From an uncultured Desulfobulbaceae bacterium (lineage in GTDB: Bacteria; Desulfobacterota; Desulfobulbia; Desulfobulbales; CALZHT01): 37,247 nucleotides of DNA. The notes under the pieces are model-generated. The model did no database searches. It worked only from the letters and a program-made list of their open reading frames with translations, and was not told the DNA's origin. A program made the position numbers and the translations under genes. Of the stretch, positions 10,891-37,247 are shown piece by piece (position 1 is the first letter of the stretch; each line of letters begins with the position of its first letter). The stretch spans positions 1-37,247 of the forward strand of contig CALZHT010000056.1 in NCBI GenBank assembly GCA_945787445.1, in the 5' to 3' direction.

Positions 10891-10915
10891 GGAACTTTTC
10901 GACATAAACCGCGTA
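10891..10915 (+). promoter_or_regulatory. Candidate ECF-type promoter of the sigma gene
   Basis: A GGAAC element (10891-10895, extended as GGAACTTTT) and a CGTA element (10912-10915) are separated by 16 bp. This is the spacing and form of promoters read by many ECF sigma factors, which often control their own genes. It lies about 57 bp upstream of the TTG start of the sigma gene. No second copy of this pair was noticed upstream of the other genes in the window. Confidence 0.5.
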
Positions 10916-10971
10916 TTACATTACAAACAATTGCGTCGACTCAATAACAATCCTATAAGCTGGGGGATTTT

Positions 10972-15785: not shown

Positions 15786-15803
15786 GAATACACCTCCTGC
15801 CTT

Positions 15804-16328
15804 TTACCCGCAGCTGCCGGCTATTTTTCTCAGCATATAATACAGGGTCTTTCTGTGTTGTCGTAATTGTTCATTGGCAGGGTCGCGTTCAAGACCTGAA
15901 AATATGGCTGTTTTTGCTTCCTGCATGGTTATTTTGATCTTTTTTCCTTGAAACAGCTTGGTTTTTTTATCAAGAAAATCAGGATTTAGATCAACTCCTT
16001 TTTTGTATTCCAACATTGCATCGATGGGCAGTTGTTTTCTCATGAAGAGGTCGCCCCGCAGTATATACGGCCTGCCGTCATAAGGAAAGCCGGCAATAAG
16101 GTCGTTGAGGAGCTTTTCAGAATCATCCAGGTTATTATTTTCAATAAGGTTTTTGGCTACCTTTACTTTTTGGTCAAACTCAGGATTTATAATCCGTACA
16201 GCCTCTCCTTTTTTTGCAGCCCATTCCTGTTCAGGCTCGGGATGCGTCACCTGGTGAACTATCAGAAAAACAGCAATGCAAGCAAGTATAACTATAAATG
16301 CCGCTGATATCGTATCAAGTCTGTCCAT
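15804..16328 (-). CDS. Membrane-anchored TPR protein
   Basis: The 174-residue protein has one N-terminal hydrophobic segment (about residues 8-25), leaving the rest probably in the periplasm. TPR-like helices follow: AKNLIENNNLDDSEKLLNDLI, then PYILRGDLFMRKQLPIDAML, then AMLEYKKGVDLNP. The C-terminus ends in RKIAGSCG, a Cys-Gly ending that is unusual for a TPR protein and may be a functional tail. It lies 66 bp after the regulatory-like-domain gene and 18 bp before the YedE-type gene, so it probably belongs to the same operon. TPRs usually scaffold protein complexes; the partner is unknown. Confidence 0.8.
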   Translation of the reverse strand: MDRLDTISAAFIVILACIAVFLIVHQVTHPEPEQEWAAKKGEAVRIINPEFDQKVKVAKNLIENNNLDDSEKLLNDLIAGFPYDGRPYILRGDLFMRKQLPIDAMLEYKKGVDLNPDFLDKKTKLFQGKKIKITMQEAKTAIFSGLERDPANEQLRQHRKTLYYMLRKIAGSCG

Positions 16329-16394
16329 ACCTGTTCTTTGCTAATCCTTTATAAATATAAAAAAATCATGAGAGTCACCCATGATTGTTTTTGT

Positions 16395-17102
16395 TCATTT
16401 TTTCTCCAACATAACAATTATATCCATTTCCTGCATGTCACCTTGCACGTCGATCCGATTCTTTAAAAAATAATCATTTTTCACCGGAAAAGTTAGTGCA
16501 GCCCCTAGAAAAAGAGTGCCACGCGGGACATATAAAATATACCTTCCCGTGTCATCTGTCCACCTAGACAAGTAGCGGGGTATGGTGCCCAGCTGTGGTT
16601 GTAAATGAGCCATAGCATATGCCATGGGTAGGGGTTGCCCATGTTTGTCCAGAATTTTTCCTGTAATTTTAAATAATTCTTCGCTTTTTTTATCGATTTG
16701 CCGGGCCGCTTCCCTGAGATCCATAACTGTAAAATTTCTCTCTGTTTCCTGGCCGGCCTTAACATTCATGGGGATAGGTTCACCTGAATGCTTGTCGCCT
16801 GTTATTAGTGGCCCGAATTTGGCGCCGCTTTTTCGAAAAACCCCCAACACCCAATATTTGCCTGGAGGTAAGACCAGAGTAAAAATACCATCAGCACCGG
16901 TCCTGTTTGAAATATAATCTGCCGGGCCCTTTACTTTATTGGAACGGTAGGCATACACTTCAGCTCCCTGAACTGCTTGTCCTTGGGTGTCCAGTATTCG
17001 TCCTTTCAGGGCAGCGGATTCCTTGCCATGTAAAGGGCTTATCCACCCAATAAAACAAGCAAGAGCGATGCAAAATATTCTCACAAAAAAGGAGTAATTC
17101 AC
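16395..17102 (-). CDS. Exported protein with carboxypeptidase-regulatory-like domains
   Basis: The 235-residue product begins with a Sec signal peptide (about residues 1-26, ending near LHG). Two beta-sandwich repeats of the carboxypeptidase-D regulatory-like type follow. The first is LKGRILDTQGQAVQGAEVYAY with GIFTLVLPPGKYWVLGV (about 32-90). The second is ITGKILDKHGQPLPMAYAMA with TGRYILYVPRGTLFLGAAL (about 145-205). Such domains serve as structural or ligand-binding sandwiches on cell surface proteins. The GTG start overlaps the beta-helix stop by 4 bp (GTGA), so translation is probably coupled. A related domain occurs in the proteins at 20842-22005 and, truncated, at 19593-19841. Confidence 0.85.
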   Translation of the reverse strand: MNYSFFVRIFCIALACFIGWISPLHGKESAALKGRILDTQGQAVQGAEVYAYRSNKVKGPADYISNRTGADGIFTLVLPPGKYWVLGVFRKSGAKFGPLITGDKHSGEPIPMNVKAGQETERNFTVMDLREAARQIDKKSEELFKITGKILDKHGQPLPMAYAMAHLQPQLGTIPRYLSRWTDDTGRYILYVPRGTLFLGAALTFPVKNDYFLKNRIDVQGDMQEMDIIVMLEKK

Positions 17103-19567
17103 TTTGAATCCCCACCAGCTAATTTCAGTTGCTTGTTAAGATAGGGCTCAAACATCACCTTACCTATATACTCTTCCTGATGGCCATCAAATATTGTCGG
17201 AAGAGGGGAAACACCTCCCCACCAGTTTCCCCTGGCGTCAACATCTTCCTTATTAAAATCGCCGAGGCGGATGCTATATCTTTCATTGGCAAATATATTG
17301 TTGCGGTTGATTGTCAGCCCGTCCCCTTGTTCCCGGACAAAGATGCCGATTTCATTTTTGGTGAAAATGGAGTCATGAATCCGGGCAGTGCCTCGAAAGG
17401 CCCTGAGTCCGATACGGTTATGAGAAAAAAGTGAATGACTAATCTCTAAAGGACCGCTTCTGAATCGAATTCCGCCGTCGTTTTGTCGGAACCGGCAATA
17501 GCTGATTGTCACATCGGAAAAATGGCTATGGATTCCCCAGGTGGCATACTCAAAGTCGCAATAAACAAAACGGCTTCCCGAAGCCCTGTCTAAAAGGATC
17601 TCCTCCCAATCAGAAGCGCCCTGTTGGTTCGTTGATGTAAATGTAATGCGTTTCTCTTTGGTGCCCTCAGCAAGTATCCGGCCATGGATGTCCATGCCGG
17701 CGTGGGGTGAAAAGAACAGGGTCGTCCCTGGCCTTATGGAAAGAACCGCATCAGGTAAAACTTCAACATGATCGGCGATGCGCATTGAACCGCTCCAGGA
17801 AACGTCGGTATTGATCGTGGGCAGAGACCAGGCGACAGGAACAGGGCCTTTACTTTGCGGTTCATAGATCACTTTTCCCAGGGACTGATCGTCATGCCGG
17901 TCGAAAAGTTCCTTGTCAAGGTCGGAGTCTCCCCACCAGTTTATGGCAGCGTCAATGTCGCTTTTTTCATCATCCAGACCAATCGCATAGAGGCCGTTAT
18001 CCATTATATTGTTTTGGGTGATGCGGCCGCTGAATCCTATTATTCCAAGCCCTCTCTCACCATTTTCCGAAATCAGATTTCCGGTGATCATGGATCTCGC
18101 GTTATTCAGGTTGATGCCGTTTAAGCCGTTGGCTTGTATAATGTTATGCTGTATTTCAATATTATCGGTGTCTCTGAAAGAGGCCCCGCCTTCGAGATTT
18201 TGTGATATTATATTTCCGGCAACTTTTCCAAATACCGCGTCAGCCATGATGAGACCGAATCTGTTGCCGGTCATTACATTCTTTTCCACAACAGTGGCGC
18301 CTTCGCGAATCCGCAGACCATCCCCTCGGTTGCGCATAAAATAATTGTTGGCAGCCTTGAGATTAAGCCGAAAAAAACTGGCGCCATGTCCATTGTTCAC
18401 CATGCGATTGCCATGGAAGACGACTTCTGAGTCTCTCGCCTGGATGCCGCTTATGTTATCGAAAAAATCACTTGATCTGATTTCCACCAGCGATTCCTGA
18501 AATTGGGCGCCTCTGTAATTGTTTCGCAAAATGGCATGATTGACGCCAATATTTGAAAAATGAAAATGCAAACCGCGGTAAGCATCTTCAACCTGACAAA
18601 ACTCTATGAGGTTTTGGGCTGCGTCGCTGCCCAATATATTGATCGCATCCCAATCACCCCGTTTTCTCTGCGTCTCTGCAGACCTGAAGAGTATTGGTTG
18701 CGACGGTGTTCCCTTTGCAATGAACATACCCTGGATCATAAGGCCGTTTTCGCCTATTCCATCGCCATTAGTATCTTTTTTAGAAAACTCAACAATGGTT
18801 CCCGGATAAATAACCAGGCGCCCTTCCAGCGGAATGCGAACCTGTCCTTTAATGAGGACCCTGCCCTTCCAAACTGTTTCACCGGGAAGGGATTCATCAC
18901 CGTATACCTTGGTAAGGTCTGCTGCAGTAAATGTAAAGGGGGCCGGAGTAGGTAGATTGTTTGCTGCAGATGATTCAAAAATGTCTTTTCTGGAATTCCT
19001 AGCTATTTCGCTTTGTTGCCTGGTAATGTCTGCCCCATTAAACAGAAAAACCCCGTATTCGTTTTTTTGAATAGCGACAGTATCAAGGGAGACTTTACCG
19101 TGTTTCCCCTGAACGATCATGCCATAGCGGTTATCAGTAATCCTTGAATGGGTAAGCTCGAGACTGCCGCCTATCACGTGAAAAGCTGCTTCAGCGCCCT
19201 CTACCGTACAATAGCGGCTTTTTACCTTGCCACCATCTATCACAATTCCCGCCCAACGCTCTCCCTTGTTTTCTCCGCCAAGTTGGAATGTGGCCAGACC
19301 TTTACTATTGCCGTCTATTTGCAGCGTACCTCGTACGGTAATTTCAGTCCGGTGCGATATAAATTCCGGATCGATTTTTGTGCTTTGGGATGGCCAGACC
19401 CGGACAACAGTGTGGGGTGATATGGTGAGGGTGACTCCCGCAGGAACTAGGATATCCTCTTTCATATCTACTTCCCCCTGCCAGACAGTATCATTGGTGA
19501 GAACCTCGGCAATGGACTGGCACGGGATTAAAAGCAAAACAAGGAATGTCAAAAAAATAAGTGGCAT
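17099..19567 (-). CDS. Large exported three-module beta-helix protein
   Basis: The 822-residue protein has a signal peptide (about residues 1-20, ending QSIA). Three modules follow, each opening with a W-x-G segment: NDTVWQGEVDMKEDILVPAG (about 25), GETVWKGRVLIKGQVRIP (about 228) and NTDVSWSGSMRIADHV (about 580). Each then has LxIxPGTxxxF, a GxxxAxGTxxxPIxF turn and Asn/Gly-rich right-handed beta-helix rungs. Modules two and three end with INWWGDSDLDKELFDRHDDQ and GNWWGGVSPLPTIFDGHQ signatures, each leading to GKVxxEP. The second module has a D-x-N-x-D-G-I-G loop that could bind calcium. The neighbours share these modules, so an extracytoplasmic assembly is plausible. No lyase or hydrolase catalytic site is evident. 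Confidence 0.9.
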   Translation of the reverse strand: MPLIFLTFLVLLLIPCQSIAEVLTNDTVWQGEVDMKEDILVPAGVTLTISPHTVVRVWPSQSTKIDPEFISHRTEITVRGTLQIDGNSKGLATFQLGGENKGERWAGIVIDGGKVKSRYCTVEGAEAAFHVIGGSLELTHSRITDNRYGMIVQGKHGKVSLDTVAIQKNEYGVFLFNGADITRQQSEIARNSRKDIFESSAANNLPTPAPFTFTAADLTKVYGDESLPGETVWKGRVLIKGQVRIPLEGRLVIYPGTIVEFSKKDTNGDGIGENGLMIQGMFIAKGTPSQPILFRSAETQRKRGDWDAINILGSDAAQNLIEFCQVEDAYRGLHFHFSNIGVNHAILRNNYRGAQFQESLVEIRSSDFFDNISGIQARDSEVVFHGNRMVNNGHGASFFRLNLKAANNYFMRNRGDGLRIREGATVVEKNVMTGNRFGLIMADAVFGKVAGNIISQNLEGGASFRDTDNIEIQHNIIQANGLNGINLNNARSMITGNLISENGERGLGIIGFSGRITQNNIMDNGLYAIGLDDEKSDIDAAINWWGDSDLDKELFDRHDDQSLGKVIYEPQSKGPVPVAWSLPTINTDVSWSGSMRIADHVEVLPDAVLSIRPGTTLFFSPHAGMDIHGRILAEGTKEKRITFTSTNQQGASDWEEILLDRASGSRFVYCDFEYATWGIHSHFSDVTISYCRFRQNDGGIRFRSGPLEISHSLFSHNRIGLRAFRGTARIHDSIFTKNEIGIFVREQGDGLTINRNNIFANERYSIRLGDFNKEDVDARGNWWGGVSPLPTIFDGHQEEYIGKVMFEPYLNKQLKLAGGDSK

Positions 19568-19592
19568 GAGTTACAAACAAAATTACATAAAA

Positions 19593-19841
19593 TTACAAAG
19601 AATAACCGGGTTTTATGAATCGGGTGTTCACTGGGAAGGGAGGCGGATTATTAATATTTTTTTTAAAAAAAGATACAATGCCGCTGAAGGGATGTTTTTC
19701 AGGCCCAACCATTATTTTACCGGTAACAATTCCATTAATACTCATTCTTCCCGTACTTTTTGCTGCCAAACAATCGGTTGCAAAAAATATGTTGCATATG
19801 ATCGGGATACAGAAACGGAGTAACATCACTGTGGACCTCAT
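19593..19841 (-). CDS. Truncated exported protein, remnant of a regulatory-like-domain gene
   Basis: From an ATG at 19841 the frame encodes 82 residues with a convincing signal peptide (MRSTVMLLRFCIPIICNIFF, then ATDCLAA). A start of a beta-sandwich follows: MSINGIVTGKIMVGPEKHPF, SGIVSFFKKNINNPPPFP. This resembles the first strands of carboxypeptidase-regulatory-like exported proteins, but the frame stops before a complete domain. It lies 25 bp before the 822-residue beta-helix gene, in the same direction, at the head of the minus-strand series. It may be a gene shortened by a frameshift or deletion, or a real small exported protein. An in-frame Met at 19922 would add 27 residues without a signal-peptide-like start. 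Confidence 0.5.
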   Translation of the reverse strand: MRSTVMLLRFCIPIICNIFFATDCLAAKSTGRMSINGIVTGKIMVGPEKHPFSGIVSFFKKNINNPPPFPVNTRFIKPGYSL

Positions 19842-20291
19842 GAATCTACTTGTTATGAACCATTTGTAATTATTGAAAAATTTAATAAAAAGGGGTATTA
19901 TAATTGATGAAATCATAAACAAAAGCGTTTTTATGATGTATTGTTCTACATGCTATTGAATCCACATACCACATGAACAATTTTCTCGATTTTTTGCGAG
20001 CGTATCATTATTGAATAAGATAATTTACATGTATTGCTATAATACTATGGAATGTATAAAAAAACCACAAATTCAAATTACCAATTCATAGAGAACAAAC
20101 AATGGAAAATACTTACAAATAGTAAGAATGCTTCCTCAAGAGGGATACGACCGTTGATAGTGCACCGGCGCAGCAGAGAGGATGGTATACACCATCTGGA
20201 TAAAAGTATTTACTTCCTGACCTTTACAACCCTCTCCTCAGCTTCTCCAACAAGACTTTTCCGGCCTATTTAGTGACTTTTTAGGATTTGC
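19842..20291. other. Divergent intergenic region between the two gene series
   Basis: These 450 A/T-rich bases separate the minus-strand series from the plus-strand one and probably carry both promoters. A TATAAT on the minus strand (19897-19902) has only a poor -35 partner. A plus-strand extended -10 is listed separately. A 73-codon open frame (20052-20273) shows no domain or coding-like composition. Confidence 0.5.
20035..20043 (+). promoter_or_regulatory. Candidate extended -10 promoter
   Basis: TG at 20035-20036, one base and then TATAAT at 20038-20043 make a perfect extended -10 element. No -35 at 17 bp is convincing. It would leave a leader of about 240 nt before the JAMM-domain gene at 20292, so its link to that gene is uncertain. 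Confidence 0.35.
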
Positions 20292-20849
20292 ATGGAATTT
20301 GAGCCAGACTCCGATATAAAAATTATTCTTCCCCAAAAGGAATACCAAGCGATCATCGACCATTGCCGCAATAATCTGCCTGGAACCAATAGTCGAAAGG
20401 AATTTAGGGCAAAAAAGGCATTCGGCCTCCTTGCCGGGGAAAAAGCAGGAAATACTATAACCGTTAAATACTGCTTTCCTTTGGATAAAAATGCCCGTTT
20501 TAATGAATCGTATAAAAATTTCATGGATAAAATAATGGCTGAACATGCCATTCCATCTGAAACACCTTTTGCCAAGAGAGGTTGGGTGGCCGATCCAGAG
20601 GAATTGCATGAAAAGATTGTGCAGTGCCATAATATGGACCTCACCATGATTGGCACCTACCATATGCACAGGGTGGCTTGGAAACACGATTCCCTGCGGG
20701 ACACTCCAACAGAATTGGATGTCATCTTGGCAAAGAAGAGCCGCATGCTCATGTTCATAGTGTCAATGGTTGATCCTGAAAAGCCGATCATCCGTGCTTT
20801 TTATGAAGGAATACTCGATTTTGAAGTGCCGATTGTTTTTAATGATTGA
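20292..20849 (+). CDS. JAMM/MPN-domain protein (putative metal-dependent isopeptidase-like)
   Basis: The 185-residue protein fits the JAB/MPN fold. It has a central FGLLAGEKAGNTITVKYCFPL strand pair and then the zinc motif H124-x-H126-x7-S134-x2-D137, an exact match to the JAMM consensus HxHx7SxxD. In JAMM enzymes a Glu just before the GLL segment is the general base. Here that position (42, three residues before the Gly) is Lys, and E37 or E50 are the nearest acidic residues, so activity is uncertain. Bacterial JAMM proteins often process sulfur-carrier or ubiquitin-like tails; no such carrier is seen nearby. No signal peptide is present. The stop overlaps the next start (ATGATTGA). Confidence 0.75.
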   Translation: MEFEPDSDIKIILPQKEYQAIIDHCRNNLPGTNSRKEFRAKKAFGLLAGEKAGNTITVKYCFPLDKNARFNESYKNFMDKIMAEHAIPSETPFAKRGWVADPEELHEKIVQCHNMDLTMIGTYHMHRVAWKHDSLRDTPTELDVILAKKSRMLMFIVSMVDPEKPIIRAFYEGILDFEVPIVFND

Positions 20850-22005
20850 CTTCCACATGCTGAAAAAAATTCTTTTGATCTTTATCTGGAGCTGTTTTTT
20901 TATAGATCCATGTATTGCAGGTATTGTTGACGGCATTGTGCTTTCAGAAAAAGGCCCCCTGCCCGAAGCAGTTGTTCTGGCATATCCTGATTATGATTCG
21001 TTTGCTGCTGACAAAAAAGCAATAGGTTCACAACCTCTTGAAAAGCCTGGCCAGTTCCACATGGAACTCCCGCCGGGCGAATATTTTTTTGTCGCTAAAG
21101 GCCGGCAAAACGGTCAGGACTTTTTTTCGTACCATGGGCTCAATCCGATATCCATCTCAGACTCATACAAATGGCTGCCGTTTTTTGCGCTTGAAGCAGA
21201 TCAAATCCTTTGCTCCGATGGCCCTCAGGGAATAGGGGGGCAGGTATTCTATAAAGATGAATCCTTGGACAGCGGTGTGGTATCGGTTTATGATGCCCAA
21301 GAGATGCGGTTTCGGGGCATGGGCTTATTAACCAGTTCACTTGATGAACAGGGCCGCTTCTGGTTCGATCTGGACCCCGGAACATACGTGTTTATTGCCA
21401 GAAAGCGTCAAGACGGCGCTGGAATAGGACCTGTCCGGAAAGGTGATCTGTTTTGCTATCATTCGACAAACCCCGTTGATATAGACACTGCTCAATCGTG
21501 CCGGATCACTATTTCATGTTATCCCAGGGACAATATCGAAGCATTTCTAATGCCTGAAGCCGACGATCCCCGTGGGAGAAGACAAGAAACGAGAAGGAGT
21601 GCCTCACACTGGAATACCGAAGCTCTTGAAGCTGCAAACGGACCTCCCCCAGATGGCATGCCATTGGGTACAATAATTTCCGGAAAAGTAACAGACGTCA
21701 ATGGAGAGCCGGTAAAAAGTATTTTTGTGACAGCGTACCCTGGTGACAACTTCCCTCTTTTTCAAATGCATATTATTCGACAGAAGACCGGATCTATGGC
21801 CCTAACCGACGATGCCGGACAATTCAGGCTGGAGCTTGACAACGGCGGCCTGTATTACCTTGTCGCCCGTGAAAAAGTCGGAGAAGCGCCGGTGCGTTTT
21901 GAACAATATGGCCTGTATGAAGGCAACGTCAACCACTCCATCAAACTTGAAACCGGTATGCAGGTGACTGATGTCCATATACGTGTTGAGCCGATAATGC
22001 CGTAA
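20842..22005 (+). CDS. Exported protein with repeated carboxypeptidase-regulatory-like domains
   Basis: The start at 20842 overlaps the JAMM gene stop by 8 bp; an in-frame ATG at 20857 is an alternative. From 20842 the protein has 387 residues. A signal peptide ends near DPCIAG. Three regulatory-like sandwiches are suggested: GIVDGIVLSEKGPLPEAVVL with GQFHMELPPGEYFFVAKG; GIGGQVFYKDESLDSGVVSV with GRFWFDLDPGTYVFIARK; and IISGKVTDVNGEPVKSIFVT with GQFRLELDNGGLYYLVAR. Each has the pattern G-x-F/R-x-L/F-x-L-x-x-G-x-Y. These are surface or periplasmic structural domains. The tight overlap with the JAMM gene suggests a functional pair. Confidence 0.85.
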   Translation: MIDFHMLKKILLIFIWSCFFIDPCIAGIVDGIVLSEKGPLPEAVVLAYPDYDSFAADKKAIGSQPLEKPGQFHMELPPGEYFFVAKGRQNGQDFFSYHGLNPISISDSYKWLPFFALEADQILCSDGPQGIGGQVFYKDESLDSGVVSVYDAQEMRFRGMGLLTSSLDEQGRFWFDLDPGTYVFIARKRQDGAGIGPVRKGDLFCYHSTNPVDIDTAQSCRITISCYPRDNIEAFLMPEADDPRGRRQETRRSASHWNTEALEAANGPPPDGMPLGTIISGKVTDVNGEPVKSIFVTAYPGDNFPLFQMHIIRQKTGSMALTDDAGQFRLELDNGGLYYLVAREKVGEAPVRFEQYGLYEGNVNHSIKLETGMQVTDVHIRVEPIMP

Positions 22006-22109
22006 ATGTTGTTATTATAGTATATTATGACTTAGCGCAAAACATAATTACCATCATTTCTTAGCTACCTAAACGATACGGAGCATAACCTGTTGATTTT
22101 TGCTATGTC

Positions 22110-22179
22110 TGTCATTTCGAACAAACGCGAGAAATTTTTTCCCGGGGCAATAAGATTTCTCGCTGTGCTCGAAATGACA
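22110..22179. repeat. Dispersed palindromic repeat
   Basis: Ends tgtcatttcga (22110-22120) and tcgaaatgaca (22169-22179) are perfect inverted copies. Internal arms gcgagaaat (22127-22135) and atttctcgc (22155-22163) pair as well, with an asymmetric A/C-rich gap. The element sits just upstream of the beta-helix lipoprotein start, and an open frame through it (from 22093) reads into that gene. The long in-frame extension is therefore repeat sequence rather than protein. Confidence 0.7.
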
Positions 22180-22197
22180 AGGGATTATAAAATCCCA

Positions 22198-23124
22198 ATG
22201 AAAACATTCATTAACTACATCTTCATATTGCAATCAATTTACCTTCTGATGGCGTGTTCCGTTCAGTCCCCGCACCTGGGCGGCCAAGAACTGCTAGTGA
22301 ATGACCAGGTTATTGCCAATGATACAATTTGGCAGGGCGATGTTTTTGTTCAGGGAGTTGTGCTGGTAAGCCGTGAAGCGACATTATCAATAAAACCAGG
22401 CACCTTTATCCGTTTTAAAAAAGATGACCGCAATGGCGACGGAATCGGAGATGCTGAAATTCGGGTGCTTGGGCGTCTGCTGGCATTAGGAACTGAAGAT
22501 AAACCCATCCGTTTTGAATCTGCTGAAAAAATACCGGCACCAAAAGATTGGTCCTATGTGCTGATCTTTTCATCCGGTAAAAAATCAACCCTTCAATACT
22601 GTGAATTCCGGCATGCCTTTTCAGGCCTACAGGTGCATTTTTCCACCGCCAAGCTGTTTGATTCACTTTTTATTAATAATTACGAAGGGATACGCTTTGG
22701 CCGTGCCCAACTGCAAATATCCCATAACACGTTTACCGATAATGATACTGCAATCCGGTTTACCAGGATGGAGGGGCCGGTCACCATAAACAACAATGAA
22801 ATAAGCGGCAACAGGCAGGGCATTTTCCTTGTCCCATCGGGCCAGAACATTACTGATTTTTTTGAACCGGACCGCAGTGGCCGCCCTTGGAACACGGGGA
22901 GGCTGCAGATTTTTTCCAATAACATTTACAATAACAGGGACTACAATCTGAATCTTGGTGAAAAACAATTCTGGAACCTGGATGTGACCAATAACTGGTG
23001 GGGTTCATTAACTGAAAGCAGCATTGAAGAAAAGATATTTGACCGAAAGAATGATGGCGCACTTGGCAAAGCGCTTTACCACCCATTTTCCAAAAGTTCT
23101 ATAAAAGAAGCTGGCGTGCGGTAA
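22198..23124 (+). CDS. Beta-helix lipoprotein
   Basis: The ATG at 22198 gives 308 residues with a lipobox at L17-M-A-C20. It has one module of the same kind as in the minus-strand series: NDTIWQGDVFVQGVVLVSRE, LSIKPGTFIRFKKDDRNGDG with a D-x-N-x-D-G-I-G loop, then GRLLALGTEDKPIRFESAEK. Asn-rich beta-helix rungs follow (about 140-260), and the end is NNWWGSLTESSIEEKIFDRK with GALGKALYHPF. It is anchored by lipid, probably facing the periplasm. An upstream in-frame start (22093) runs through a palindromic repeat and is rejected. The dehydrogenase gene follows after 9 bp, so the two are probably co-transcribed. Confidence 0.88.
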   Translation: MKTFINYIFILQSIYLLMACSVQSPHLGGQELLVNDQVIANDTIWQGDVFVQGVVLVSREATLSIKPGTFIRFKKDDRNGDGIGDAEIRVLGRLLALGTEDKPIRFESAEKIPAPKDWSYVLIFSSGKKSTLQYCEFRHAFSGLQVHFSTAKLFDSLFINNYEGIRFGRAQLQISHNTFTDNDTAIRFTRMEGPVTINNNEISGNRQGIFLVPSGQNITDFFEPDRSGRPWNTGRLQIFSNNIYNNRDYNLNLGEKQFWNLDVTNNWWGSLTESSIEEKIFDRKNDGALGKALYHPFSKSSIKEAGVR

Positions 23125-24478: not shown

Positions 24479-25858
24479 ATGCCCTCGCATCCTCTTGATT
24501 TCCAAATACAGACCAATATATTCGCAACACCTGAGCTTCTTTCCGTATTTGACGAAAAAAAAAGATTCCAGCGCTGGCTAGATATAGAAGCCGCCCTCGC
24601 GCAAACGCAAGGCGAACTCGGGATTATTCCCCGTGATGCCGCATCTGAAATTGCCGCTAAGGCGTCTCTTGAGCATATCGATTTGTCTTATGTTCATCAG
24701 GAATATCAACTCAGCCGCAATTCTCTGGTGCCATTACTGAAAGGACTCAGAAAGGCATGCGGCAAAGTTCATGGTGAATTCGTCCACTATGGCGCCACCA
24801 CTCAGGACATCCTGGACACCGCCCAGATCCTGGAACTGAAAGAAACTTTCGCAATACTCTACCGGGATCTGCGAAATCTTGAGCACTATTTACTCGAAAT
24901 AACCGAATGCCACCAAAACACACCCATGATTGCCAGGACCCATGGGCAACAGGCATTACCAATTACCTTTGGCCTTAAAACCGCAGTCTGGCTTTCCGAG
25001 ACGAGACGACATATTGAACGGATCAAACAGCTCTATCCGCGCATACTGACGGGTCAATTGAGCGGAGCTGTGGGGACAATGGCAGCTTTCGGTCCGAAAG
25101 CCCTGGCTGTCGTGGAACAAACCTTGACCAGGCTCGGCCTCAAGCATTCGCCGGCCAGCTGGCACACATCCCGTGATACTATTGCGGAAACCGCTGCTTT
25201 TTTTTCCATCCTTTCCGGAACACTAGAAAAAATTGCGAATGAAATTTTTCAGCTGGGGAAAAACGAAATCAGCGAGCTCCATGAACCCCTCCCATCCAAG
25301 GCAATAAGCAGCAGCACCATGCCCCACAAAAGGAATCCTGTACTTTGCCAGCGCATCTCTGTTCTTGCCAGGCATGCCCGATCCCTTACCTCCGTTGTTT
25401 TTGACAGTATGGTGCATGAACATGAACGTGATGCCCGTGCCTTATGGTCCGAATGGCTGGCCATGCCGCAGATCGCCATATACACTGCCACAGCGCTTTC
25501 CTTCCTTACCAATATCATGGGAGGCCTTGAGGTTAACCTTGAAAAGATGAAGGAAAATCTCTATCTGCAAAAGGAGATGGTTATTTCCGAGTGGCTTCTA
25601 TTTCACATGTCACAAAAGATTGGCAAGATGCGGGCCCAGGAAAAAATTCATACCCTCCTGCAACTAGCAACTGCAAAAAACATATCCTTGAAAGAAATCC
25701 TTGCTGGTGATCAGGAGGTAGGCCCTTTGTTCGGCAAGGACGCACTTGAAATGTTTGACCATCCTGAACGGTATATTGGCAATTCCATTGAAATTATCAC
25801 AGCAGTCCTGCACGAAGTAACAACCAAACGTCAGAATGATCCCGAGGTGTTAGTGTAA
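24479..25858 (+). CDS. Fumarase/aspartase superfamily lyase, PcaB/PurB-like (first of tandem pair)
   Basis: The 459-residue protein is related to adenylosuccinate lyase and 3-carboxymuconate cycloisomerase. TTQD is at residues 107-110, THGQQALP begins at 154, and the signature SSSTMPHKRNP lies at 277-287, so the catalytic His and Ser regions are present. The N-terminal FQRWLDIEAALAQTQGELGIIP is the PcaB/PurB-type start. It shares little with the purB at 5532 outside the motifs, so it is not simply a second purB. Such enzymes eliminate or add fumarate-like groups at amines or carbons; the substrate here is unknown. Its stop overlaps the start of the next lyase by 1 bp. Confidence 0.88.
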   Translation: MPSHPLDFQIQTNIFATPELLSVFDEKKRFQRWLDIEAALAQTQGELGIIPRDAASEIAAKASLEHIDLSYVHQEYQLSRNSLVPLLKGLRKACGKVHGEFVHYGATTQDILDTAQILELKETFAILYRDLRNLEHYLLEITECHQNTPMIARTHGQQALPITFGLKTAVWLSETRRHIERIKQLYPRILTGQLSGAVGTMAAFGPKALAVVEQTLTRLGLKHSPASWHTSRDTIAETAAFFSILSGTLEKIANEIFQLGKNEISELHEPLPSKAISSSTMPHKRNPVLCQRISVLARHARSLTSVVFDSMVHEHERDARALWSEWLAMPQIAIYTATALSFLTNIMGGLEVNLEKMKENLYLQKEMVISEWLLFHMSQKIGKMRAQEKIHTLLQLATAKNISLKEILAGDQEVGPLFGKDALEMFDHPERYIGNSIEIITAVLHEVTTKRQNDPEVLV

Positions 25859-27312
25859 TGGCATGTCAGTCCCTGCGGAGTCACATTCTGGACTCCAGGT
25901 TTTACAGTTCCGGCTATACTACGGATGAAGCCCGCCGGATATTTTGCGATCTAAGACGATTACAGCGTTGGCTTGAGGTGGAAACAGCCCTGGCCAAGGT
26001 TCAGGCCGATCTGGGCATTATTCCAGCGGCGGCAGCGCAGTATTTACAAAAAACCGCAAATCTCAAGCTGTTGGATGTCACCAAGATACAGGAAGACATT
26101 GTCGCAACGGGTCACTCCTTGATTCCCTTGCTTTCCGCGTGGCAATCCATTTCAGGTGATTCCGGCCAGTACATCCATTACGGCGCCACAACCCAGGACA
26201 TTCAAGACACTGCCCAGGTCCTGGAAATAAGGGATGTTTTTGTCATTATTGAACGGGACCTCACCGCTTTGACCGGCAGCCTTATTGCTCTTGCAGACAC
26301 CTATAAAGGTCTGGTCATGATCGGCCGTACCCATGGTCAGCCAGCTCTGCCTACAACTCTGGGTCTCAAAATCGGTGTATGGCTTGATGAACTACTCCGC
26401 AGTGCTGCCCGCCTTATGGATTGCAAAAAGAGAATTCTGGTCAGCCAGCTCTTTGGCGGGGTCGGTACCATGGCGGCTTTTGGTGAAAAAGGCATTGTTT
26501 TGCTTGAGAAGTTTTCAGCGCTTCTTGATCTCGGATCTCCACTTGCTGCCTGGCACAGCAGCCGGGACAGATTTGCGGAATATCTCTCTGCCATTGCGAT
26601 CCTTGGCGGCTGCCTCGGGAAAATCGGCAATGAAATCAGCCAGCTTTCCAGGGCTGAAATCCGCGAACTTGAAGAGCCCTTTCATTTTGGCAAAATCGGC
26701 AGCACAACAATGCCACACAAGCGCAATCCCGAACTCTGCGAACAGGTTGTAGTGCTTGCCAAACTCATTAAAAGCAATGCTGATTTGGGTTTTGAGGCCC
26801 TGATCAATGAACACGAGCGGGATTACCGTTCGATACGGCTTGAATGGGTCAGCATCACTGAGGCTTCTCTTTTTCTCTGCGGTGCTCTCGCTCTTATGAA
26901 AAAAATCATTAACGATCTCATTGTCCATAAGGACCGTATCGAGCAAAACACCAAAGAATCATCCTTTCTTATATCGACAGAAAAACTGATGTTCCTTCTG
27001 GGTGAGAAAATCGGCAAACAAAAGGCCCATCAGATTCTTTATGAAGCTGCCATGGAGTCCCATGATTCGGGCACGCCCATAATTGATCTTTTAGTGGAAC
27101 ATCTTGAGATCAAATCCCTTTTTAAGCGGCAAAATCTGGAAGCGGCAATGGATCCTTCCGGCCATATCGGTCTGGCAAAAGACCTTACTCAAAATGTTAT
27201 TGAATCGGCAAAAAGGTGGCTTTCCGACCAGGATATTTCCCAACAAAATTTAGCATCCTGCCCTCTGGCCAATAAGGACGGGCAGTGCTTTCTTGAAAAC
27301 GGAACTGTGTAA
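25858..27312 (+). CDS. Fumarase/aspartase superfamily lyase, PcaB/PurB-like (second of tandem pair)
   Basis: The 484-residue protein is a paralogue of the preceding one. TTQD is at 111-114, GRTHGQPALP at 156-165 and GSTTMPHKRNP at 281-291, so the catalytic elements are intact. The two share the WHxSRD, GTMAAFG and INEHERD/VHEHERD segments, showing an old duplication. The ATG overlaps the previous stop (TAATG), so the pair is translationally coupled and may make a heteromeric enzyme. The C-terminal tail (about 465-484) is Cys-containing and has no counterpart in the first lyase. It is followed after 3 bp by the NicO-type transporter gene. Confidence 0.88.
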   Translation: MACQSLRSHILDSRFYSSGYTTDEARRIFCDLRRLQRWLEVETALAKVQADLGIIPAAAAQYLQKTANLKLLDVTKIQEDIVATGHSLIPLLSAWQSISGDSGQYIHYGATTQDIQDTAQVLEIRDVFVIIERDLTALTGSLIALADTYKGLVMIGRTHGQPALPTTLGLKIGVWLDELLRSAARLMDCKKRILVSQLFGGVGTMAAFGEKGIVLLEKFSALLDLGSPLAAWHSSRDRFAEYLSAIAILGGCLGKIGNEISQLSRAEIRELEEPFHFGKIGSTTMPHKRNPELCEQVVVLAKLIKSNADLGFEALINEHERDYRSIRLEWVSITEASLFLCGALALMKKIINDLIVHKDRIEQNTKESSFLISTEKLMFLLGEKIGKQKAHQILYEAAMESHDSGTPIIDLLVEHLEIKSLFKRQNLEAAMDPSGHIGLAKDLTQNVIESAKRWLSDQDISQQNLASCPLANKDGQCFLENGTV

Positions 27313-30436: not shown

Positions 30437-31492
30437 TTATATTTTTTTGAGGAGATGCGTTCTGAGGTTTACGCTTTTATTGGTGAGGCCAAGTTTTTTC
30501 CGGATATTTTTTCTATGCGATTCAACAGTTTTTGGCGAAATATTCATTATATCCGCAATTTCTTTGGTAGAGCTTCCGTGCTTTATAAGGTTTGCTATCT
30601 GTATCTCCATGGGAGTGAAATTCTCGAATTCCACCGGCAACTCCGGCATGGATGAAATAGTAAATGAAGAGAGTACTGTTTCGAAATTTGCCTTGATCAG
30701 GTCTACGAGAGATTTTTCACTTTTAGGCAAATTTGCGTGTTGTAAAGCATCAAGATGTGGCAGCACATTGTTATGAAGATCTAATAAGATATTCTCTTCA
30801 ATTCTGACCTTATCCTTTTCCCTTTCCTCAACGAGCATCCGCAGGGCAGTGTTTACCTCATCGATATTTTTGCTTTTGATTTGCAGTTGCTCTTCAAGCT
30901 CCAGTTTTTCGTTCAACACTTCATTCATATTTTTACTGACCCTCTGCACAAAGGCATTCTGGGCCAAAATCTGTTTTTCCATATCGTTTTGAATAGTGCC
31001 GATATCTTTCATGAGCCGCCAATTTTCACCCAGCACCTCGGCAAAATGGGTTATCTCATGCCAATGAAACGGTTTCTGGATGTAAAACAACTGCGCGGTT
31101 GATGGAACTTGTTCGGCAATGGTGTTGGGAGGAACATCCGTATAGGCGGTTACAATAACGATATGGATGCAGGGATCCAAAGCCCGAATCTGAGCAGCTG
31201 TCCACACGCCGTCCGGACCGGGAGGCATTCTCACGTCAATAAAAGCAACGGCAAAAGGCCTGTTTCCCTCTTTAGCTTTCTTGGCATGTTTTACGGCTTC
31301 TTCTCCACCTGAACAGGTTGTGAGTTCAAAATGTGGAAATACAACAGCTTCTTTTGATTCCAGTGCACCATCTTTACTCTCGGAAAAAGGGTCCTCTTCG
31401 ATATCAGGTGTGAATATGCTTTGGTAGATCGCGAGCATGTCAGGCATATCATCCACAGCAAGAATTCGAATTGGTTCAGCATATTTATTCAT
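30437..31492 (-). CDS. Response regulator, REC-coiled coil-LuxR HTH
   Basis: The 351-residue protein has a receiver domain (about residues 8-150): acidic pair D14-D15, phospho-acceptor D86 (FIDVRMPPGPDG), T115 and K140. About 25 extra residues sit between the first helix and second strand (30-55). A helical linker spans about 165-280, with the segment NILLDLHNNVLPHLDAL. A LuxR-type DNA-binding domain follows (292-351), with TPMEIQIANLIKHGSSTKEIADIMNISPKTVESHRKNIRKKLGL. This architecture is common in Deltaproteobacteria and typically pairs with a hybrid or separate histidine kinase; none is nearby. The gene converges on the binding-protein operon, and its targets are unknown. Confidence 0.92.
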   Translation of the reverse strand: MNKYAEPIRILAVDDMPDMLAIYQSIFTPDIEEDPFSESKDGALESKEAVVFPHFELTTCSGGEEAVKHAKKAKEGNRPFAVAFIDVRMPPGPDGVWTAAQIRALDPCIHIVIVTAYTDVPPNTIAEQVPSTAQLFYIQKPFHWHEITHFAEVLGENWRLMKDIGTIQNDMEKQILAQNAFVQRVSKNMNEVLNEKLELEEQLQIKSKNIDEVNTALRMLVEEREKDKVRIEENILLDLHNNVLPHLDALQHANLPKSEKSLVDLIKANFETVLSSFTISSMPELPVEFENFTPMEIQIANLIKHGSSTKEIADIMNISPKTVESHRKNIRKKLGLTNKSVNLRTHLLKKI

Positions 31493-32042: not shown

Positions 32043-32460
32043 CTATGGACAACTTACGGGTGATATGACCGTTGCCCCGGAAGGTATGGCACCGGAGATT
32101 GATCCGCTGCTGGTGGTGATATAGAAGCCATCAAGCTCAAGGCCGTTTTCCCGGGCCCATATATTGATGGTATACACACCGATGTTGTTGATGGTGATTC
32201 GTGTTGGGTTCGGACCGGCATTATGTGGCGTTCTCGTCCAGTTCCAACTGGTATTGGATGCCGGCGTGGTGGCATTACCGACCATGGAGCTGTCAAGCCC
32301 GTACCACAGTGAGTTGTCGCCACTGTTACCACCATCCTTTCCTCTGAACCAGATATAATAGGTGCCGGTCTGGGTAAAGTTCAGGTCGTATTGTGCAGAG
32401 GAACCGGAGATGGAACCGGTGCTGTTGGCAACTTCACAACCTCCGCCACTTGGTGGAGGA
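32043..32460 (-). other. C-terminal carbohydrate-binding-like domain and Gly/Pro linker
   Basis: The last 140 or so residues of the cytochrome hold no heme motif. A poly-Gly/poly-Pro linker sits just above this segment (about 32440-32500). The domain starts CEVANSTGSISGSSAQYDLN and has GTYYIWFRGKDGGNSGDNSL and INIWARENGLELDGFYIT, a pattern seen in beta-sandwich modules at the C-termini of polysaccharide-active or cell surface proteins. It could tether the cytochrome to extracellular polymer. Confidence 0.6.
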
Positions 32461-35400
32461 GGTGGCGGAGGTGTACCACCACCACCGCCGCCGCCGGCGA
32501 TATCGTTATACACGGGTACAAAGGTTGAGTTCCCTGAGCACACGCCCTGGGTATCATTGGCATTGGCATCGCACGGTATTTCTACCCAGGAGTCAACCGA
32601 GATCTCCTGCGGGCCGTTGGGATTATCAGGTACCTGCCAGGGGATCGAATCGTCTCCGTCGCCGCCGACCACATCCTTATAGACAGATTCTGCCCGGTCC
32701 ATGGCAGCATCACCATCTCTATCATGAACCTGCGGATATTCACGGAAGTCATTGCGGAACAAGTTGAACTTGCCCCGACCGGGTGCATAGCGCAGGGTAT
32801 CGAACGGCTGGTCGTTATTATGGCTCATATGATCAGTCGGCACCACATTGGTATCCGGGTTGCCCATGGAATTGACCATGCCGGTCGTGCCCTGCGGCCA
32901 CGGCTTGGCATGGAAGATCTGGACATTATGGCAGTCGAAACAGGCGCCGTAGTTGACCACCTGGATATCATTGCCACCCATGCTCGGGATCCGGTGGACC
33001 TCGGTCTGCACAACCCGGGCGGCATCTACCGCCATGTTACGGGAGCCGGATGGGAAGGTAACATCCCTCGGTGTATAGGTATTCTTGTTGATCACCAGAT
33101 CACCGTTGTTGTTATTAACGACATGGCATTTGATGCAAGCCAGCTGCTGGGGCGCCGGACTTGGCCCGGTGAATGCCGTATTGAAAGCGGGTCGCGGATC
33201 AGTGTGACAGGACTCGCAGTCGCCGGCCTGGGCAGAAGCAAAGGTATGGTGCACATTGCCGCCGCCTGCGCCGCCGCCATGACAATCCTGACAGTTCACT
33301 GCTGCTCCGGCCATACCGGCGGAAATTGTATCAAGCACCTCCTGGCGTGTGCTGGAGTGGCACGTGGCACAGGTATCCACATGCAACGTCAGGATCTGGT
33401 TGAAATCAGCACTGGCATGGCAGTCTGAACACGGTGTTGTGGTGCTCAGTCTATCATGGTCTGCCGCTCCGTCATGACCGGTATGGCAGTCCTCGCAGTT
33501 CACCGGTATGCCGCTGGTTCCACTGCCGGCGGAAATAGTGTTGATCACCGCCTGACGCGTGCTGCTGTGGCAGGTCGCGCAGTTGCTGAGATGTACTGTG
33601 GAGATGGCATTGAAATCTCCACTGGAGTGACAGCTCGAGCAGTTGGTCGAAGTGGACAGGTTGTTGTGATCTGCCGTGGAATTATGACCGGCATGGCAAT
33701 TCTCACAATTCACCGCTACACCGCTTGCGCCACTGCCGGCAGAAATGGTGTTGATTACCGTCTGACGCGTGCTGCTGTGGCAGGTTGCGCAGTTATTGAG
33801 ATGTACTGTATAGATGGCATTGAAATCGCCACTGGAGTGACAGCTCGAGCAGTTGGTCGAGGTGGATAGGTTGTTGTGGTCTGTCGTGCCATTATGACCG
33901 GCATGGCAATTTTCACAATTTACCGGAGTGCCACCAGATCCAACATTGATGGTTGTGACCACATCAGGTCTGGTGCTGCTGTGGCAGGTTGCACAATCGC
34001 TGCGGTGCAACGTATGGATGGCGTTAAAGGTACCACTGGCATGACAGCTTGAGCAGTTGGTCGAAGTGGACAGACTGTTATGATCAGCAGACGGATCAGC
34101 ATGACCGTTGTGACAGTTTTCACAGTTCACCGGCACACCTGATGTGCCTCCGCCTGCATTGACCGTGTCAATTACCTCCTGACGAGTACTGCTGTGACAG
34201 GTTCCGCAATTGGTGAGATGGAGTGCGTAAATATCGTCAAATGTAGGGCTGACATGGCAACTCGAGCAGTTTGTAGAAGTACTCAGCATGTTGTGATCCG
34301 CGGTGCCGTTGTGAGCATCATGACAGTCTTCACAACTGACCGGGGAGCCTCCCATGCCGGCGGTGATGGTATCATATACCCGTTGGATGGTACTGGCGTG
34401 ACAGGTTGCGCAGTCGGTCCGATGCAGTCCGTAGATATCATCAAATGAAGCGCCGGCATGACAGGTTGAACAGTTGGCTGAGGTGGACAGCATGTCATGA
34501 TCGGCAGCATGACCGACATGGCAGGTCTCGCAATTCACCGCTGTGCCGGTCCGACCGTCACTGATAGCCTGCGCCACTTCAGGCCTGGTGCTGGCATGAC
34601 ACAGGGTGCAGTCTGAAAGATGCCTGCCGAGGATTTCATTGAACGAGCCGCTTATATGACAGCTTGAACAGTTTGTAGACGTGCTCAGCATATTGTGATC
34701 CGCCGCGCCGTTATGAGGATCGTGGCAGTTTTCACAATTGACCGGATTGCCTCCCATGCCGGCGGCGATGGTATCATTTACCCGCTGCGCGGTACTGGCG
34801 TGACAAGTTGCACAGTCGGTCCTGTGCAAACCGTAGATGTCATCAAATGAAACGCTGTCATGACAGATTACACAGTTTGCCGAAGTGGACAGCATATCAT
34901 GGTCGGCAGCATGACCGACATGGCAGGTTTCACAATTCACCGCTGTACCGGCGCGGCCGTCACTGATGGCCTGCACCACTTCAGGCCTGGCGCTGCCATG
35001 ACACAGGGTGCAGTCTGAACGGTGCCTGCCGAGGATTTCATTGAACGAACCGCTGATATGACAGCTTGAACAGTTTGTAGAGGTGCTCAACATATTATGA
35101 TCAGTCGGGCCGTTATGGGCTGTATGGCAGGTCTCACAGTTGACCGCTGTTCCAGCCCGACCTGAATTGATTGCGGCAACTACCTCCAGTCTGGTGCTGC
35201 CGTGGCAGGTTGCGCAGTCGGTCCGATGCAGTCCGTAGATGTTGTCAAATGAAGCACTGCTATGACAGGTCGAACAGTTCGCAGAAGTGGACAACATATC
35301 ATGATCGGTTGCACCGTTATGGGCTGTATGGCAGTTCTCGCAATTCACCGGGGTGCCTGTGGCGCCGCTTCCGGCAGTAATCGTAGTAATTACATCCGTC

Positions 35401-37247
35401 CTGGTGCTGCTGTGGCAGGTGGCGCAGTTGCTGAGATGTACCGTGTAGATGGCATTGAAATCAGCACTGCTATGACAGGTTGAACAGTTCGCAGAAGTGG
35501 ACAGGTTATTATGGTCGCCGGTTGGACCGGAATGTCCGGTATGGCAGTTCTCGCAATTCACCGGAGTGCCGGCTATACCTGTTGTGATAGCTGCAAGGAC
35601 TTCAGTCCGCGGACTCAGATGACAGAGCAGGCAGTCATTATTGTGCAAGGTATTAATTTCATCCTGATTAGCACTGGCATGACAGGCAGAGCAATTGGCC
35701 GATGTGTTCATATCGGTGTGTGTCCTGCTCTGCTCGATATGACAATTGCTGCAATTCGAGCCTGTATTCACCAATGTATTATTATGCATAAGACTCGGCT
35801 GCGTGATGGCAGGATGCTGGCTCACATGACAGCTTTCGCAGTTCACCGAGGTGCCTCCCATACCTGCACTGATGGCATTTACTACCTCTTGACGCGTGCT
35901 GTTATGACAGGTTGCACATCGATCAACCGATGATCCACCTAAAACCGTTAATGGTGGATGGTATGTATGGATATAGTTGAAATCAGTGCCGCTTGCTTTG
36001 TCGGTATGGCATATGGAACATGTCGGCGAAGCGTTCAGGTTGTCGTGAATCGCCGGACCGTCATGAGCTGCATGGCAACAGTTCGCTGAAGTGGAAAGCA
36101 TGTTGTGATCAGCTGCCGTGTCAGTATGGCCGACATGGCAGTTCTCGCAGTTTACTCCTGTTCCAGCCCTACCGTCACTGATTGCCTGTACAACATCCGA
36201 CCTTGCACTGGCATGACACAGGGTACAATCAGCCATGTGGGTGGACAGAATGGCGCTGAAGTCGTCTGCGGAATGACAGCTTGAGCAGTTTGTTGAGGTG
36301 GATAGCATATCGTGATCGGTTGGGCCGCTATGAGCCGTATGGCAGCTCTCACAACTCACCGCTGTACCGGCCCTGCCGTCACTGATCGTCTGCACAACTT
36401 CAGGCCTGGTACTGCTGTGACAGGTCGCACAATTGCTTAAGTGGGTCGCTAAGACTTCATCAAAAATACCTGTTGTATGACATGTTGAGCAGTTCACTGA
36501 AGTGTTCAACATGTTATGATCGGTTGCCAGATCAGTATGCCCGCTATGGCAATTTTCACAGTTCACCGGCAGGTTAGCGCCGCCGGACTTTCCGTCATCG
36601 ATGGTTTGAATAACGTCCGGTCTCGCGCTGCTATGACAGGTCGCACAATCGCTCAAATGGGTCGTTAAGATTTCATCAAATGTAGCGCTGGTGTGACAAC
36701 TTGAACAGTTAGTAGATGTGCTCAGGTTATTGTGATCTGTCGGACCATGGCCGGTATGGCAATTCTCACAGTCTACCGGAGTGCCGGCCATACCATTACT
36801 GATAGTCTGATCAACTTCCGGTCTCGTGCTGCTGTGACAGGTCCCGCAGTCATTGAGATGTAGTGCATAGACATCATCTATAGTGCCGCTGACATGACAG
36901 GTTGAACAGTTCGGTGAGGTGGACAGCATATCATGGTCGGTGCCATGCGGAACATGGCAGCTCTCACAGTTCTGCATCACCCCGGCAAGACCGGCACCAT
37001 TACCGATTGCATCCTGAACCTCAGGTCTCGGGCTGTTATGGCAAGTCTGACAATCGTCCACGTGTAAGGTGAGTATCTCTGAGAAATTTTCGCTGACATG
37101 GCACTCGGAACAATTCACCGAGGTCTCAAGATTGTCGTGATCGTTTTGATGGCCGCCGCCATGGCAATCGCGGCAGTTCACCAACTGGTTGCCGCCGCCG
37201 GTTATACCAAGGTCAATGGTGGCAAGGGTATTGTTGACAAGCACAGG
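32043..37247 (-). CDS. Giant multiheme c-type cytochrome, C-terminal part (extends beyond window)
   Basis: The visible 1733 residues contain 59 CXXCH heme-binding motifs by hand count, so this is a very large multiheme cytochrome; its N-terminus and signal peptide lie outside the window. Most of it (about residues 20-1340) is a tandem repeat of 66-70 residues. Each unit carries three motifs: a VNCENCHxGH type, a TNCSSCHxSxxF type and a DCATCHSSTRxEV type. Extra His residues after the motifs (xGHxG, DHNxLS, xxxHL) could be distal heme ligands. A less regular end has CESCH, CIKCH and CFDCH. A Gly7-Thr-Pro7-like linker then leads to a beta-sandwich of about 100 residues (TYYIWFRGKDGG, ENGLELDGFYITT), which resembles carbohydrate-binding modules. 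It is probably exported and may work in extracellular electron transfer. Confidence 0.93.
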   Translation of the reverse strand, partial: PVLVNNTLATIDLGITGGGNQLVNCRDCHGGGHQNDHDNLETSVNCSECHVSENFSEILTLHVDDCQTCHNSPRPEVQDAIGNGAGLAGVMQNCESCHVPHGTDHDMLSTSPNCSTCHVSGTIDDVYALHLNDCGTCHSSTRPEVDQTISNGMAGTPVDCENCHTGHGPTDHNNLSTSTNCSSCHTSATFDEILTTHLSDCATCHSSARPDVIQTIDDGKSGGANLPVNCENCHSGHTDLATDHNMLNTSVNCSTCHTTGIFDEVLATHLSNCATCHSSTRPEVVQTISDGRAGTAVSCESCHTAHSGPTDHDMLSTSTNCSSCHSADDFSAILSTHMADCTLCHASARSDVVQAISDGRAGTGVNCENCHVGHTDTAADHNMLSTSANCCHAAHDGPAIHDNLNASPTCSICHTDKASGTDFNYIHTYHPPLTVLGGSSVDRCATCHNSTRQEVVNAISAGMGGTSVNCESCHVSQHPAITQPSLMHNNTLVNTGSNCSNCHIEQSRTHTDMNTSANCSACHASANQDEINTLHNNDCLLCHLSPRTEVLAAITTGIAGTPVNCENCHTGHSGPTGDHNNLSTSANCSTCHSSADFNAIYTVHLSNCATCHSSTRTDVITTITAGSGATGTPVNCENCHTAHNGATDHDMLSTSANCSTCHSSASFDNIYGLHRTDCATCHGSTRLEVVAAINSGRAGTAVNCETCHTAHNGPTDHNMLSTSTNCSSCHISGSFNEILGRHRSDCTLCHGSARPEVVQAISDGRAGTAVNCETCHVGHAADHDMLSTSANCVICHDSVSFDDIYGLHRTDCATCHASTAQRVNDTIAAGMGGNPVNCENCHDPHNGAADHNMLSTSTNCSSCHISGSFNEILGRHLSDCTLCHASTRPEVAQAISDGRTGTAVNCETCHVGHAADHDMLSTSANCSTCHAGASFDDIYGLHRTDCATCHASTIQRVYDTITAGMGGSPVSCEDCHDAHNGTADHNMLSTSTNCSSCHVSPTFDDIYALHLTNCGTCHSSTRQEVIDTVNAGGGTSGVPVNCENCHNGHADPSADHNSLSTSTNCSSCHASGTFNAIHTLHRSDCATCHSSTRPDVVTTINVGSGGTPVNCENCHAGHNGTTDHNNLSTSTNCSSCHSSGDFNAIYTVHLNNCATCHSSTRQTVINTISAGSGASGVAVNCENCHAGHNSTADHNNLSTSTNCSSCHSSGDFNAISTVHLSNCATCHSSTRQAVINTISAGSGTSGIPVNCEDCHTGHDGAADHDRLSTTTPCSDCHASADFNQILTLHVDTCATCHSSTRQEVLDTISAGMAGAAVNCQDCHGGGAGGGNVHHTFASAQAGDCESCHTDPRPAFNTAFTGPSPAPQQLACIKCHVVNNNNGDLVINKNTYTPRDVTFPSGSRNMAVDAARVVQTEVHRIPSMGGNDIQVVNYGACFDCHNVQIFHAKPWPQGTTGMVNSMGNPDTNVVPTDHMSHNNDQPFDTLRYAPGRGKFNLFRNDFREYPQVHDRDGDAAMDRAESVYKDVVGGDGDDSIPWQVPDNPNGPQEISVDSWVEIPCDANANDTQGVCSGNSTFVPVYNDIAGGGGGGGTPPPPPPPSGGGCEVANSTGSISGSSAQYDLNFTQTGTYYIWFRGKDGGNSGDNSLWYGLDSSMVGNATTPASNTSWNWTRTPHNAGPNPTRITINNIGVYTINIWARENGLELDGFYITTSSGSISGAIPSGATVISPVSCP
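33290..37247 (-). repeat. Coding tandem repeat array of about 198-210 bp units
   Basis: The DNA of the cytochrome is built of about 18 related units. Neighbouring units at about 33601 and 33811 are 210 bp apart and differ at few bases. A higher-order period of 402 bp (two units) is seen from 34267 to 35070. Units near the window end (36800-37200) are more divergent. This arrangement suggests repeated unequal duplication, including recent events. Confidence 0.85.
34267..35070 (-). repeat. Two tandem copies of a 402-bp, six-heme block
   Basis: The anchor sequence cagtttgtaga occurs at 34267 and 34669 and, with one difference in the last base, at 35071, exactly 402 bp apart each time. The two blocks encode almost the same 134 residues, with signatures FNEILGRH and FDDIYGLHRTDCATCHAS in each. 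The third anchor begins a unit that diverges after a short distance. Confidence 0.85.

Follow-up and report, generated by a model that had tools for sequence, protein, structure and literature searches.

The C-terminal portion of a probable giant multiheme cytochrome with a triheme-unit array and a carbohydrate-binding-like tail in an uncultured Desulfobulbaceae bacterium

Described heme arrays and the window gene

Multiheme cytochromes of very large size appear in genome listings but have received little study. Among the closest described systems, the Geobacter triheme polymers GSU1996 and GSU0592 are, together with the 27-heme GSU2210, described as periplasmic, and GSU1996 has been called a capacitor (PMC10138318). 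Large ANME multiheme cytochromes carry S-layer or pectin-lyase-like domains, with 86 hemes also published (PMC9012536); a 113-heme protein of Methanoperedenaceae has been called the largest (PMC7327174). An 86-heme cytochrome of Desulfuromonas acetexigens is expressed during growth on electrodes and iron oxide (PMC12133095), and Planctomycete-specific cytochrome c proteins with carbohydrate-binding modules (CBMs) occur in Verrucomicrobia (PMC5615132).

The stretch of DNA analyzed here (the window; 37,247 bp) is the entire contig C56 (CALZHT010000056.1) of a 4.46-Mb genome (G000) in 227 contigs. On its minus strand, positions 32043-37247 hold one frame of 1734 residues with 59 CXXCH motifs that stays open up to the contig end. 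Because the window is the full contig, the N terminus is truly absent: the gene runs off the contig, and the choice of window plays no part in this. Shuffled versions of the same protein carry a mean of 0.6 motifs (n = 200 shuffles), which rejects a chance origin of the array, and none of the other window frames (stretches longer than 60 amino acids) has two or more CXXCH. We read the gene as probably the C-terminal portion of a secreted giant multiheme c-type cytochrome with at least 59 hemes, and probably about 100 in total.

Like GSU1996 and GSU0592, the window protein strings repeated c7-type three-heme domains along a single chain with short linkers. GSU1996 has 12 hemes versus 59 or more here and 86 in a complete paralog on contig C80, and each of its domains has one His-Met heme, whereas the window units have three non-motif His residues, which would suit bis-His ligation throughout (PMC10138318). 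By analogy, the window protein may work like these polymers, with five to eight times more hemes. To our knowledge, GSU1996 has neither a cap nor a CBM-like tail. The D. acetexigens cytochrome comes from the same phylum and equals the C80 paralog in heme count (PMC12133095). ANME proteins likewise combine a very large heme number with a surface or carbohydrate-type module (PMC9012536); they and the Methanoperedenaceae protein are archaeal, however, and their modules are of S-layer, transmembrane, or pectin-lyase-like kind rather than the CBM6/35-type tail found here (PMC9012536, PMC7327174). A Pfam scan at E 1e-3 of the C-terminal part of the chain, as present in the window, gave no S-layer family, and on this basis the protein is not placed among the ANME MHC-A/B S-layer cytochromes. 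The CBM cytochromes of Verrucomicrobia are of another cytochrome type and are not known to have repeat-built heme arrays. They do, as here, join cytochrome c and a CBM-type domain within one protein (PMC5615132).

Several established families were rejected. The protein scores 31 bits against a cut-off of 209 for the OmcA/MtrC decaheme family (NCBIfam TIGR03507) and 146 against 192 for the DmsE-family decaheme cytochrome (NCBIfam TIGR03508); HmcA and TmcA are near matches, all below cut-off. An MtrCAB-type conduit was likewise rejected, since the MtrB/PioB porin (PF11854) has no match in the organism's own genome, which is 95.6% complete. Giant multiheme cytochromes are already known and, with 86 and 113 hemes published, counts of 59, 86, or about 100 are no records. 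In the literature searched (largely other than subscription papers), no paper turned up on a cytochrome that joins a repeat-built array to a tail of CBM6/35 type. To that extent, the initial annotation was right to call the pairing of a heme array with a sugar-binding-like tail unusual, a judgment tempered by the giant cytochromes that carry other surface modules (PMC9012536).

Heme array, cap, and tail

The heme array (residues 1-1318; 33294..37247, minus strand) was delimited by direct translation, motif count, unit alignment, and Pfam. Its CXXCH motifs follow a repeating spacing of about 20-23, 20, and 26-29. This gives 17 regular units, each of three hemes and 66-71 residues, the first beginning at residue 25; residues 367-565 are irregular. 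Both Cytochrom_c3_2 (E 9e-64, 212 bits) and Cytochrome_C7 (E 1.2e-47, 160 bits) match above the Pfam cut-off, so that the array consists, as in c7-type triheme polymers, of tandem three-heme units matching c7/c3 models. Further Pfam matches on the array, to the DnaJ zinc finger and DUF5319, were rejected as driven by CXXC. The initial annotation had counted 59 motifs, mostly in three-heme units, in a protein missing its N terminus; each of these points is borne out.

In an alignment of 38 units from the window protein and the C80 paralog, six Cys, the three CXXCH His, and two further His are invariant (38/38), a third non-motif His is present in 34/38, and Met occupies one alignment column in 19/38. 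Six His per three hemes would supply two axial ligands to each heme, as bis-His ligation requires, and the array is predicted to be a chain of bis-His c7-type triheme units. The span containing all 59 hemes (window residues 1-1440) holds 63 non-motif His, and the array is acidic (126 D+E versus 36 K+R). An AF2 model of three repeat units has a pLDDT of 44.5, too low for a fold search or for comparing heme-chain geometry with the crescent of closely stacked hemes typical of GSU1996-like polymers. When the array sequence was searched against the PDB, it returned weak, chance-level cytochrome matches only.

Duplication and loss of units are visible within the array. Unit alignment and TRF show that two units, together holding six hemes, were duplicated in tandem as one block (residues 704-837 / 838-971; 34335..35138, minus strand), whose copies are about 85% identical per unit (B704/B838 85%, B772/B906 85%; TRF period 402, 34248-35146, 85% matches), and that a single three-heme unit was also duplicated (residues 1111-1180 / 1181-1250; 33498..33917, minus strand), with 89% identity between copies (TRF period 210, 33474-33925). 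Comparison of window residues 367-410 with paralog residues 1304-1396 places a deletion scar, ANCCH, at residues 388-392 (36072..36086, minus strand), where three hemes that the C80 paralog has were lost in frame. Expansion by the assembly was rejected: units average 56% identity, and even the most alike, at 85-89%, are far from identical. Together with complete relatives of 36 hemes (G062) and 59 hemes (G010), the whole-unit duplications and the in-frame three-heme loss indicate that array length evolves largely by whole units.

After the array comes a cap domain (residues 1319-1584; 32496..33293, minus strand), drawn from an alignment of five relatives (A1) and a profile search of the order, in which four CXXCH precede a stretch free of heme where the motifs HAKP and APGRGxFN are conserved. 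A Gly/Pro-rich linker (residues 1585-1602; 32442..32495, minus strand; direct translation) then leads to a heme-free C-terminal beta-sandwich tail (residues 1603-1734; 32046..32441, minus strand) that resembles CBM6, CBM35, and GH115_C by Pfam, alignment, profile, and model. The sequence of array, linker, and beta-sandwich had thus been seen correctly at the outset, with the conserved cap left unseparated. The tail, moreover, lacks the first strands that every aligned relative has.

Pfam GH115_C (PF17829; cut-off 24.1 bits) gives the window tail 16.1 bits, below the cut-off, and the C80 paralog tail 26.5 bits, above it. A profile of seven tails (A2) matches the CBM35 of exo-beta-D-glucosaminidase (2vzp, E 0.003). 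The model of the window tail (pLDDT 73, pTM 0.68) has its best structural match in the CBM6 chain 2cdp_B (Z 9.5, 90 residues aligned, 1.8 Å), followed by CBM6, CBM35, CBM36, and GH115 structures; nearly all top rows are of these kinds (also 4zmh). Foldseek returned an E value of only about 0.007 for the same model. As modeled, the tail appears to have the beta-sandwich fold of CBM6/CBM35/GH115_C modules (2cdp, 2vzp, 4zmh), so that the similarity to carbohydrate-binding modules expected beforehand was found. Unlike those modules, it is joined to no enzyme and is without the first strands and their EAE motif.

The missing part, about 37 residues, is a strand block that all six aligned relatives keep as EAE or ESE; because the window tail has lost it, solved CBM chains align to the tail only from about residue 30-41 onward. 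In CBM6/CBM35-type modules, the EAE motif of the N-terminal strand belongs to a structural calcium site. Its loss, together with the score below the Pfam cut-off, makes sugar binding by the window copy doubtful. A polysaccharide-binding tail, as first proposed, accordingly keeps its CBM-type fold and, for this copy, loses much of its plausibility. The same module is present in non-heme surface-type proteins of the order (L059, L060, L061, L062), including a PilY1-like protein, a distribution that would fit a general role in surface or matrix attachment. Some of these non-heme carriers also have dense Asp-rich (TSP3-like) repeats.

Intact paralog, probable missing start, and relatives

The same genome holds a complete relative on contig C80 (L024:8309-16069; 2586 amino acids, apoprotein mass 270 kDa, 86 CXXCH). 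It begins with a hydrophobic segment of signal type whose last residues are AHA; neither a lipobox nor a further hydrophobic segment was found in it. Its cap and tail are as in the window, with the tail complete and of EAE type, and another C-terminal module is added, to which Pfam gives no significant match. Between the window gene and this paralog, dN/dS is about 0.16-0.17, which indicates purifying selection. Ankyrin-repeat genes, 86% identical to each other, lie on both sides of the paralog (L024:7034-7675, 16576-17217).

Contig C95 ends at 13188 within a 28-heme N-terminal piece whose start, with a signal segment, resembles the C80 paralog. On the C80 alignment, C95 ends at L024 10474 and the window begins near 11328, leaving a gap of about 850 bp that encodes 13 hemes in the paralog. 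At synonymous sites, the two pieces have diverged from C80 to a comparable degree (C95, 0.59-0.82; window head, 0.74-1.07), and both show a low dN/dS. By alignment to the paralog, we infer that C95 and the window are probably opposite ends of a single gene, B, which would carry about 28 + 13 + 59 = 100 hemes. No overlap of at least 10 bases joins the window end to C95 or to other contig ends, and the missing middle part of gene B is on no other contig of the bin. A total above 59 hemes, as had been anticipated, agrees with the 86 of the intact paralog and with the 28 that the probable N-terminal piece adds.

At L025:12351, C95 lacks 85 bp that C80 has, and this deletion throws the probable N-terminal part out of frame. 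The frameshift is either an error of the assembly or a genuine interruption; if C95 is the window's N terminus, the gene may be a recent pseudogene. An upstream interruption, which the initial annotation had named as grounds for refuting its reading, is thereby partly raised. Elsewhere on C95 lies a tail-domain remnant with a stop codon (L025:8838-9041), followed by a response regulator (L025:9227-10291) that precedes the cytochrome start and is 63% identical to the one in the window (30437-31492); remnant and regulator look as if a cytochrome-regulator pair had once been present here as a tandem copy.

The window copy could accordingly be a decaying paralog, with the C80 protein as the one that works. 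The out-of-frame deletion on C95, the adjoining remnant with its stop (C95:8838-9041), and the loss of the first tail strands all point that way, against 1734 stop-free codons, an intact CXXCH pattern, and a dN/dS of about 0.17 versus the C80 paralog. The frameshift, moreover, sits on another contig of a fragmented assembly, where it may be an artifact or C95 may be another gene. On balance, we find decay rather unlikely.

Downstream of the window cytochrome lies the response regulator (receiver plus LuxR-type HTH; 30437..31492, minus strand; Pfam GerE and Response_reg), a candidate regulator of the cytochrome. Neither response-regulator nor ankyrin neighbors were found in the examined stretches of relatives, and we therefore do not claim them as conserved partners. 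Elsewhere, window positions 13730-23124 hold clustered genes, lying on both strands, for proteins with right-handed beta-helix (NosD-like) and carboxypeptidase-regulatory-like domains, and 24479-27312 hold two adjoining lyase_1/adenylosuccinate lyase family genes, then a NicO/DsbD-like transporter gene.

Across the order, taken to be Desulfobulbales, 4 of 258 genomes combine array, cap, and tail (the organism's own, G002 of the same family, G062, and G010). One scan of genome contigs gave 5 loci. In a Desulfuromonadales MAG (L067), a contig edge holds such a tail together with two hemes. By profile search, tail-less occurrences of the cap are spread more widely across the order than the full combination, and the array on its own finds matches in 71 of 253 genomes. 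On CALZHP010000005.1 (L066), the G062 locus of an uncultured Desulfobulbaceae bacterium, tandem giant cytochromes of 54 and 36 hemes (1925-6355 and 7631-11320) have the cap and the last module in common, and only the second, 36-heme protein has the CBM-like tail; the tail thus behaves as a cassette.

Proposed role and competing readings

We lean toward an extracellular electron conduit or store held by its tail, a reading that overlaps with the alternatives weighed here. It draws on the open frame of 59 CXXCH with conserved extra His and c7/c3 Pfam matches; on the C80 paralog, with 86 hemes, a signal segment, and no other hydrophobic segment; and on purifying selection (dN/dS), the CBM-type fold of the tail, and the recurrence of the tail module in surface-type proteins. 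DsrA scores above its cut-off in the genome, making the organism a dissimilatory sulfur metabolizer, and both this and the expression of the 86-heme cytochrome in D. acetexigens are consistent with the reading (PMC12133095). Against it stand the lack of an adjoining EET operon, the absence of MtrB/PioB, a window tail without EAE strands, and the possible frameshift on C95. The fold of the array and the ligand of the tail are predicted from their families.

Under this preferred reading, the cytochrome would be exported by Sec and receive its hemes in the periplasm, to end up at the outer membrane or beyond it. Its stacked hemes would conduct electrons along one polypeptide, or hold many, linking the cell with a partner outside it (a mineral, another cell, or a matrix cytochrome, for example). 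The far end would be fixed in exopolysaccharide or on a cell surface by the flexible linker and CBM-like tail; in the window copy, with its shortened tail, this binding role may have been lost.

No EET operon, outer-membrane anchor, or porin partner was found adjoining the window gene. The lack of an adjoining anchor or porin partner, like the absence of MtrB/PioB from the genome, would also suit a periplasmic electron store, a capacitor like GSU1996 whose tail binds peptidoglycan or another envelope glycan, and the periplasmic location described for GSU1996, GSU0592, and the 27-heme GSU2210 offers a precedent (PMC10138318). The tail module, however, recurs in surface-type proteins such as the PilY1-like one, and a fully stretched chain of 86-100 hemes would be long for a periplasm, so that we judge this store unlikely. 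A cytochrome acting as adhesin, its tail recognizing a partner cell or mineral-bound polysaccharide and its array making the electrical contact for interspecies transfer, has parallels in the pectin-lyase-like domain of ANME MHC-C, proposed to recognize partner cell walls (PMC9012536), and in the PilY1-like tail relative, but is quite unlikely given the incomplete window tail.

Returning to the extracellular conduit or store, the family combines a simple triheme repeat and a separable tail with lengths that form a countable series: 36, 59, 86, and probably about 100 hemes. With these, one could test if reach or storage depends on heme number and if the chain is kept outside the cell by a glycan-binding tail. 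More tentatively, the family may represent a lineage of covalent single-polypeptide heme wires, about 100 hemes long (252 or more in a relative), in which exchangeable carbohydrate-binding modules fix the free end in exopolysaccharide, as an alternative to polymerized cytochrome filaments such as OmcS or OmcZ.

The length series is extended by another genome of the same order, G020, to at least 252 hemes, over twice the 113 called largest (PMC7327174). Its contig C173 (L053+L054, minus strand, 3-25424) holds an open frame of 8474 amino acids with a signal peptide and 252 CXXCH, a lower bound because the contig end cuts the C terminus. A paralog on C176 (L055) is a 5696-amino-acid frame with 173 CXXCH; over 4969 aligned codons, the two are 70% identical, with 155/155 motifs aligned, which supports the 252-heme frame. 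The longest other frame in the DNA of the 252-heme gene is 374 amino acids.
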